A stretch of 64,000 bases of DNA from Miniimonas arenae (lineage in GTDB: Bacteria > Actinomycetota > Actinomycetes > Actinomycetales > Beutenbergiaceae): contig NZ_VENP01000002.1 in the NCBI RefSeq assembly GCF_006351005.1, positions 62,001-126,000 on the forward strand, given 5' to 3'. The notes beneath the pieces were generated by a model. It searched no databases, was not told the DNA's origin, and saw only the letters and a program-made list of their open reading frames with translations. Positions 23,582-24,417 of the stretch are shown piece by piece; within the stretch, counting starts at the first letter, position 1; every line of letters starts with the position of its first letter. The position numbers and the translations under genes are program-made.

Positions 23582-24232
23582 TCAGTCCTCCGAGCCGCCG
23601 ACCTGGTCGATCACGGCGTCGGCGACCTCGCGCATCGTGAGGCGACGGTCCATCGACGTCTTCTGGATCCAGCGGAACGCCTCGGGCTCGGTGAGCCCCA
23701 TCCGGGTCATGAGCAGGCCCTTGGCCCGGTCGACGCGCTTGCGGGTCTCGAAGCGGTCCGCGAGGTCGGCGACCTCGTTCTCCAGGGCCACGATCTCGGC
23801 GTGCCGGTGCAACGCGATCTCGATCGCGGGCAGGAGGTCCGCCTGCGTGAACGGCTTGACGACGTAGGCCATGGCGCCGGCGTCGCGCGCCCGCTCCACG
23901 AGCTCGGTCTGCGAGAACGCCGTGAGGAGCACCACCGGGGCGATCCGGTCCCGGCCGATCCGCTCGGCGGCGGAGATCCCGTCCAGCACGGGCATCTTGA
24001 CGTCCATCACCACGAGGTCGGGGCGCAGGTCCGTGGCCAGTGCGACCGCGGTCTCGCCGTCGCCGGCCTCGCCGACGACGTCGAACCCGGCGTCCACGAG
24101 GGTCTCGACGACGTCCATCCGGATCAGCGCCTCGTCCTCGGCGACGACGACCCGACGGCCCCTGCCGATGCCCGGCGTCGAGGTCGACGTCTCGTCCTCG
24201 GGCTCCTGCTCGTTCTTCTTCGCTGTGCTCAC
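23582..24232 (-). CDS. pdtaR: ANTAR-domain response regulator (PdtaR family)
   Basis: A two-component response regulator whose output domain binds RNA and acts as an antiterminator. The 216-residue product has a receiver domain at about 27-140 (phospho-acceptor Asp77 in 'LVVMDVKMPVLDG', 'VVLLTAFSQ', Lys in 'VVKPF'). A helical linker and an ANTAR domain follow at about 155-210 ('RAKGLLMTRMGLTEPEAFRWIQ'). This matches mycobacterial PdtaR (Rv1626), which also lies near pyk, polA and rpsA. GTG 24232 is used: a TACGCT box ends 6 bases before it, predicting a leaderless mRNA. The partner kinase PdtaS is not in the window. Confidence 0.93.
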   Translation of the reverse strand: MSTAKKNEQEPEDETSTSTPGIGRGRRVVVAEDEALIRMDVVETLVDAGFDVVGEAGDGETAVALATDLRPDLVVMDVKMPVLDGISAAERIGRDRIAPVVLLTAFSQTELVERARDAGAMAYVVKPFTQADLLPAIEIALHRHAEIVALENEVADLADRFETRKRVDRAKGLLMTRMGLTEPEAFRWIQKTSMDRRLTMREVADAVIDQVGGSED

Positions 24233-24238
24233 CCCGGT

Positions 24239-24244
24239 AGCGTA
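24239..24244 (-). promoter_or_regulatory. -10 box for leaderless pdtaR, overlapping a tRNA promoter box
   Basis: TACGCT on the minus strand ends 6 bases before the pdtaR GTG. On the plus strand TAGCGT (24238-24243), shifted by one base, can serve as the -10 of the divergent tRNA gene starting at 24256. Confidence 0.55.
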
Positions 24245-24255
24245 GTGCCCCGCGC

Positions 24256-24329
24256 GCCCCGGTAGCCCAACTGGCAGAGGCAGTCGGCTCAAACCCGACC
24301 CAGTAAGGGTTCGAATCCCTTCCGGGGCA
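24256..24329 (+). tRNA. tRNA-Leu(CAA) with a short variable loop
   Basis: A 74-base cloverleaf. The acceptor stem is GCCCCGG/CCGGGGC, the anticodon stem is GTCGG/CCGAC and the T arm is AAGGG-TTCGAAT-CCCTT. The anticodon loop CTCAAAC puts CAA at 24290-24292, which reads the leucine codon TTG. The discriminator base is A24329, suitable for leucine; CCA is not encoded (CCCA follows). The variable region is only five bases (24300-24304), whereas bacterial tRNA-Leu normally has a long extra arm. The folding is unambiguous; the amino acid identity is inferred from the anticodon. Confidence 0.85.
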
Positions 24330-24417
24330 CCCACGCCTCGTCGAGTGGTGTGACCGTCGACATCGCGGGACGGCTCACCGGCGTCCGGGGACGTCGCCGG
24401 GCGGCTCGAGAAGCGAC

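Follow-up and report, generated by a model that had tools for sequence, protein, structure and literature searches.

The window, by which we mean the whole 64-kb stretch of DNA analyzed here, contains a single tRNA gene as detected by ARAGORN, which identifies it as tRNA-Leu(CAA) and places it at 24256-24331. The Rfam tRNA model (RF00005) matches 24256-24329 on the forward strand with a score of 55.5 bits (E = 3e-9). The gene lacks the full CCA, the sequence after A73 running CCC. The elements of the tRNA and its neighborhood, which includes the pdtaR gene, are collected in Table 1.

Table 1. Features of the tRNA-Leu(CAA) gene and its surroundings, in window coordinates
Feature	Position	Strand	Remarks
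tRNA-Leu(CAA), class I body	24256-24329	+	74 nt to A73; ARAGORN, Rfam
Leucine-type D-arm	24265-24281	+	3-bp stem GCC/GGC, C13.A22 mismatch, A14 A15, G18G19, A20a
Anticodon CAA (reads UUG), followed by A37	24290-24292	+	
5-nt variable loop CCAGT	24300-24304	+	positions 44-48; U48 pairs with A15
Discriminator A73	24329	+	A in the window gene
pdtaR, response regulator with ANTAR domain (PF00072, PF03861)	23582-24232	-	divergent neighbor; start codon 24 bp from the tRNA
TAGCGTA, symmetric -10-like element	24238-24244		read from the sequence, between tRNA and pdtaR

In textbooks and reviews a long variable arm is the mark of the bacterial leucine tRNA. An earlier note on this DNA had described a CAA anticodon combined with a five-base variable loop in a perfect cloverleaf. 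ARAGORN, Rfam and direct reading bear out the anticodon and the loop, which at 5 nt falls short of the variable arm of 10 nt or more that defines class II. The cloverleaf is likewise present, but it is not perfect, given that the D-stem has only 3 bp with a C13.A22 mismatch, as is typical of leucine tRNAs. Together with an 11-nt D-loop (CAACTGGCAGA) this stem forms a layout that the genome's class II leucine tRNAs share but that none of its other class I tRNAs has; indeed, within the genome a 3/11 D-arm with A15 and A20a is restricted to leucine tRNAs. The free-energy folding z-scores are -2.5 for the CAA tRNA and -0.8 for the UAA tRNA.

An alignment of 44 distinct class I Leu(CAA) sequences showed compensatory double changes at 17 of 20 stem pairs, 3.9% non-canonical cells and an invariant A73, indicating that the structure in the window is no chance fold; comparable changes affect 16 of 20 stem pairs in 89 class I Leu(UAA) sequences. 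Across 173 class I UUR sequences C12-G23, C13.A22 and A73 are universal and U48 is present in 170, with the qualification that for loci L159-L277 the search pattern partly set positions 18-26, where conservation is not independent evidence, and left positions 9, 12-15, 46-48 and 73 free. In contrast, 77 of 81 class II UUR sequences have G12-C23, a difference which implies that the split between the classes involves the core in addition to the arm. We propose that the window tRNA is a member of a class I tRNA-Leu lineage that is widespread and has a conserved core of its own, consisting of C12-G23, C13.A22 and usually A46-G47-U48.

Leucine decoding in the source genome

The leucine identity elements established in E. 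coli, namely A73, the trans-Levitt pair A15-U48, G18G19 and A20a, are all present in the window tRNA. Leucylation in E. coli requires these elements, with the long arm being dispensable and truncated tRNAs without it still active (PMC9976931). Hence, the premise of the earlier note that recognition depends on the long arm fails for E. coli LeuRS, and its remark that the discriminator suits leucine agrees with the identity role of A73 in E. coli (PMC9976931) and with the presence of this base in 44 of 44 class I CAA sequences.

The source genome, a 3.40 Mb draft in 148 contigs that is 99.7% complete, yielded 44 tRNA matches, including leucine tRNAs with five anticodons. Leu(UAG), Leu(CAG) and Leu(GAG) are class II (85-86 nt including the 3' end), and the two remaining ones, Leu(UAA) and Leu(CAA), belong to class I. 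No class II UUR tRNA, and thus no second, class II tRNA-Leu(CAA) such as the earlier note had suggested looking for, was recovered by a pattern search of this draft assembly, which also lacks tRNA-Ser(GCU). The latter absence from the tRNA set is probably an assembly gap. A CAA anticodon turned up on no other gene of the genome, and the window gene appears to be its only CAA tRNA. All reading of UUR codons in this genome thus seems to rest on class I bodies, and wobble could allow Leu(UAA) to read UUG as well. A similar picture, with two class I matches and no class II UUR match, is seen in G217 and G287, mycobacterium-like genomes that each consist of a single contig.

With 2 occurrences among about 4,800 codons in ten genes of the window, and none in the leuS of the source genome, UUG is too rare in this genome for its meaning to be assessed there, and relatives were used instead; UUA is similarly very rare in the genes of the window. 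In 30 related leuS genes, 128 of 147 UUG codons occupy columns with a leucine majority, similar to CUG (1203/1436) and CUC (449/564). When the count is restricted to genomes from families having class I UUR tRNAs, the corresponding figure for UUG is 39 of 45.

These data bear on the suggestion of the earlier note that the tRNA might be charged with another amino acid, and on the related possibility that it arose by remodelling of a tRNA from another family. Its nearest relative in the genome outside leucine is tRNA-Met(CAU), at 78% identity, and the missing arm of the human mitochondrial tRNA-Leu(UUR) is explained by its recent derivation from a Met tRNA (PMC8450103), which lends such a remodelling some plausibility. 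However, the nearest tRNA overall is Leu(UAA), at 84%, and the Met, Thr and Lys tRNAs of the genome have 4-bp D-stems with loops of 7-9 nt instead of the leucine 3/11 arrangement. Furthermore, the form in the window is maintained with compensatory changes over many families, its anticodon is not duplicated on any other gene found, and the relatives place UUG at leucine columns. We consider remodelling from another family extremely improbable, and the leucine D-arm, A15-U48, A20a and A73 lend no support to an amino acid other than leucine.

One LeuRS gene was found in the source genome. Given that the identity elements are present and the genome has this one enzyme, we infer that the tRNA is leucylated. 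Overall, we hold with high confidence that the gene would be expressed as a functional class I elongator tRNA-Leu(CAA), which decodes UUG and is charged by the single LeuRS of the cell. The enzyme would recognize A73 and the elbow of the leucine-type D-arm (A15-U48, G18G19 and A20a) rather than the variable arm.

LeuRS in the order falls into two diverged groups, one sharing about 65-75% and the other about 50-54% identity with the source enzyme, and both are mixed among its families, even inside the family of the source organism. We rejected the type of LeuRS as the cause of the class I tRNA, as the latter is found with both kinds.

The tRNA beside pdtaR

The earlier note had also drawn attention to the placement next to pdtaR and proposed an alignment with the tRNAs beside its orthologs. 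We surveyed 80 pdtaR loci across the phylum, collected by the protein and not by the tRNA, and sought tRNAs within about 2.5 kb. A tRNA is present near pdtaR in 61 loci and is Leu(CAA) in every one of them, class II in 50 and class I in 11; no tRNA was found within this distance in the other 19. The adjacency of pdtaR and the tRNA is an old synteny, and the class I and class II Leu(CAA) genes found there are positional orthologs. In genus g66 (probably Streptomyces) genes of both classes share an upstream element and a downstream hairpin.

The element between the two genes in the window could, as read from the sequence, serve both the tRNA (TAGCGT on the forward strand) and a leaderless pdtaR (TACGCT on the reverse strand). 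The GTG start of pdtaR lies 6 bases past TACGCT, and a shared bidirectional promoter with a leaderless pdtaR is possible. A TAGCCTA-like heptamer occupies the same location in many relatives. A scan of this promoter region with the sigma-70 consensus gave no match.

An adjacency kept across the phylum and a possibly shared symmetric -10 element are features that might be expected of a regulatory tRNA-like RNA tied to pdtaR, a job which the earlier note had entertained. However, pdtaR adjoins either class, with an ordinary class II tRNA-Leu(CAA) in the same place in 50 of the 61 loci, and both the orientation of the tRNA and its distance from pdtaR vary widely, and none lies within about 2.5 kb in 19 loci. 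UUG in pdtaR is neither enriched nor conserved in position, and its share of the leucine codons of pdtaR is alike with the two forms of the tRNA (6.4% and 5.9%). A regulatory role is accordingly very hard to sustain, and we retain the reading as an elongator tRNA. Also considered and discarded was a bldA-like regulatory UUG codon in pdtaR: the pdtaR of the window contains a single TTG, but such codons do not keep a conserved location, and their use is independent of tRNA class.

Distribution and origin of the short form

Within the order, BLAST searches detected matches to the tRNA in 123 of 149 genomes, and all 30 loci examined among these encode class I Leu(CAA) or Leu(UAA). At the level of the phylum (296 genomes), 88 genomes match a class I UUR pattern and 244 a class II UUR pattern, with some chance matches in each count. 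The result is a mosaic, in which the two UUR tRNAs may both be class I or both class II, or may differ in class, with either UAA or CAA being the class I form, and the combination differs even inside one family (f45). Among the matches listed, class I forms occur in Mycobacterium, Mycolicibacterium, Nocardia, Rhodococcus, Gordonia, Corynebacterium, Dietzia, Microbacterium, relatives of Arthrobacter, Nocardioides, Amycolatopsis, Blastococcus, Streptosporangium and Acidimicrobiales, as well as in metagenome-assembled genomes labelled Planctomycetota, Rokuibacteriota, Deltaproteobacteria, Acidobacteria and Chloroflexaceae. Matching tRNA-Leu genes are also carried by phages of Mycobacterium, Gordonia, Streptomyces, Corynebacterium, Enterococcus, Citrobacter and cyanobacteria; the four phage genes examined are all class I, and phage UAA genes reach up to 90% identity over the matched part among the matches listed. 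A search of plasmids returned few matches, mostly actinobacterial.

Four loci (L250, L271, L215 and L191) are tRNA clusters, which may belong to phages or mobile elements. In the first three, class I also extends to some of the leucine tRNAs that read CUN (CAG, GAG), and L250 holds four class I leucine tRNAs. At four further loci, outside Actinomycetota (L172, L192, L169 and L241), class I Leu(UAA) adjoins tRNA-Cys, accompanied in L172 by tRNA-Gly, an arrangement that resembles the glyW-cysT-leuZ order of E. coli. In the latter order leuZ is class II.

Class I and class II tRNAs alternate at one locus, even inside one genus. On a PdtaR tree of 121 loci parsimony places 19 class changes, at least 8 of which are forced by supported branches, these counts being rough since the protein is short and the branches are long. 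In 16 of 18 comparisons restricted to the acceptor, anticodon and T arms, and thus excluding the variable loop and the D-arm, class I genes are closer to class I of other families than to class II of the same family, with mean best identities of 0.83 and 0.75, respectively. This cross-family resemblance, along with the close phage relatives, favors replacement by a class I lineage over deletion of the arm, and the alternation at the pdtaR-linked locus probably reflects such gene replacement.

The same function could have been preserved had the short form arisen repeatedly and independently by deletion of the arm in place, an alternative that concerns only the origin. Within one genus, genes of the two classes do share locus, promoter and terminator, and the class II genes L278, L317 and L312, with D-stems resembling those of class I, could be intermediates. 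However, the better match of the class I arms to those of other families, the identical core signature everywhere, the close phage-borne relatives and the direct repeats around some streptomycete class I genes speak against it, and we regard deletion in place as rather unlikely. The resemblance in the three class II Leu(CAA) genes consists of C12-G23 and, in L278 and L317, a GCC/GGC D-stem.

Streptomycete-like class I genes (L143-L145, L286-L289) tend to have short flanking direct repeats (CCTTcGATTCcAAGG-like), which are absent around class II genes at the same locus and, compared with shuffled sequences, are clear in some cases (L143, L145) and not in all. They could be the scar of gene insertion. 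With regard to replacement, we tentatively raise the possibility that class I tRNA-Leu is a separate phage-borne mobile lineage which has repeatedly replaced class II tRNA-Leu(UUR) at fixed loci in Actinomycetota and beyond. A possible driver is that an armless tRNA escapes toxins or nucleases that read the arm, to which LeuRS would be indifferent.

The window tRNA is very probably a working leucine tRNA without the long extra arm. The earlier note's first suggestion, an atypical leucine tRNA, was right as to leucine; it is atypical only against the textbook picture, as the form recurs in many actinobacteria and beyond. Its patchy recurrence in mycobacteria, other actinobacteria, some other bacteria and phages indicates that a leucine tRNA is not defined by the arm. 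The mosaic of class I and class II leucine tRNAs is the broader result. The arm is missing from UUR-reading leucine tRNAs of many actinobacteria (mycobacteria, Nocardia, Corynebacterium, Nocardioides), some other phyla and phages. This affects tRNA annotation by isotype model; moreover, the alternating presence and absence of the arm at one syntenic locus is a natural experiment on what LeuRS reads, and the mosaic makes the swapping of tRNA genes by mobile elements testable.

Comparison with known leucine tRNAs

In the open-access literature, with subscription journals outside the scope of the search, we found no paper naming a class I, type I or short-arm form of bacterial chromosomal tRNA-Leu. 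The class mosaic and the switching at a locus seem to be undescribed in that literature; the short form itself is visible in existing annotation. In M. tuberculosis a long variable loop is named for tRNA-Leu-2, -3 and -5 (PMC11541572), and since only these are so named the other tRNA-Leu of this organism are by implication short, a form neither identified nor discussed there. A tRNA-Leu(UAG) with a short variable loop is known from a mycobacterial tRNA cluster (PMC6582537); this and the phage tRNA-Leu are class I like the window tRNA, but they are accessory copies.

The human mitochondrial tRNA-Leu(UUR) is likewise class I, reads UUR and is charged by LeuRS without a long arm (PMC9976931). It has a relaxed structure, whereas the window tRNA is tightly conserved and encoded on a bacterial chromosome. 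With bacterial class II tRNA-Leu, such as those of E. coli, the window tRNA shares A73, A14, A15-U48, G18G19 and A20a, the 3-bp D-stem with a mismatch at 13.22, the leucine-box anticodon and often the same chromosomal locus. Unlike them, class I tRNAs lack the variable arm of 13-17 nt, have C12-G23 and C13.A22 in place of G12-C23 and G13.A22, and usually carry A9 and A26 where class II has G9 and G26.
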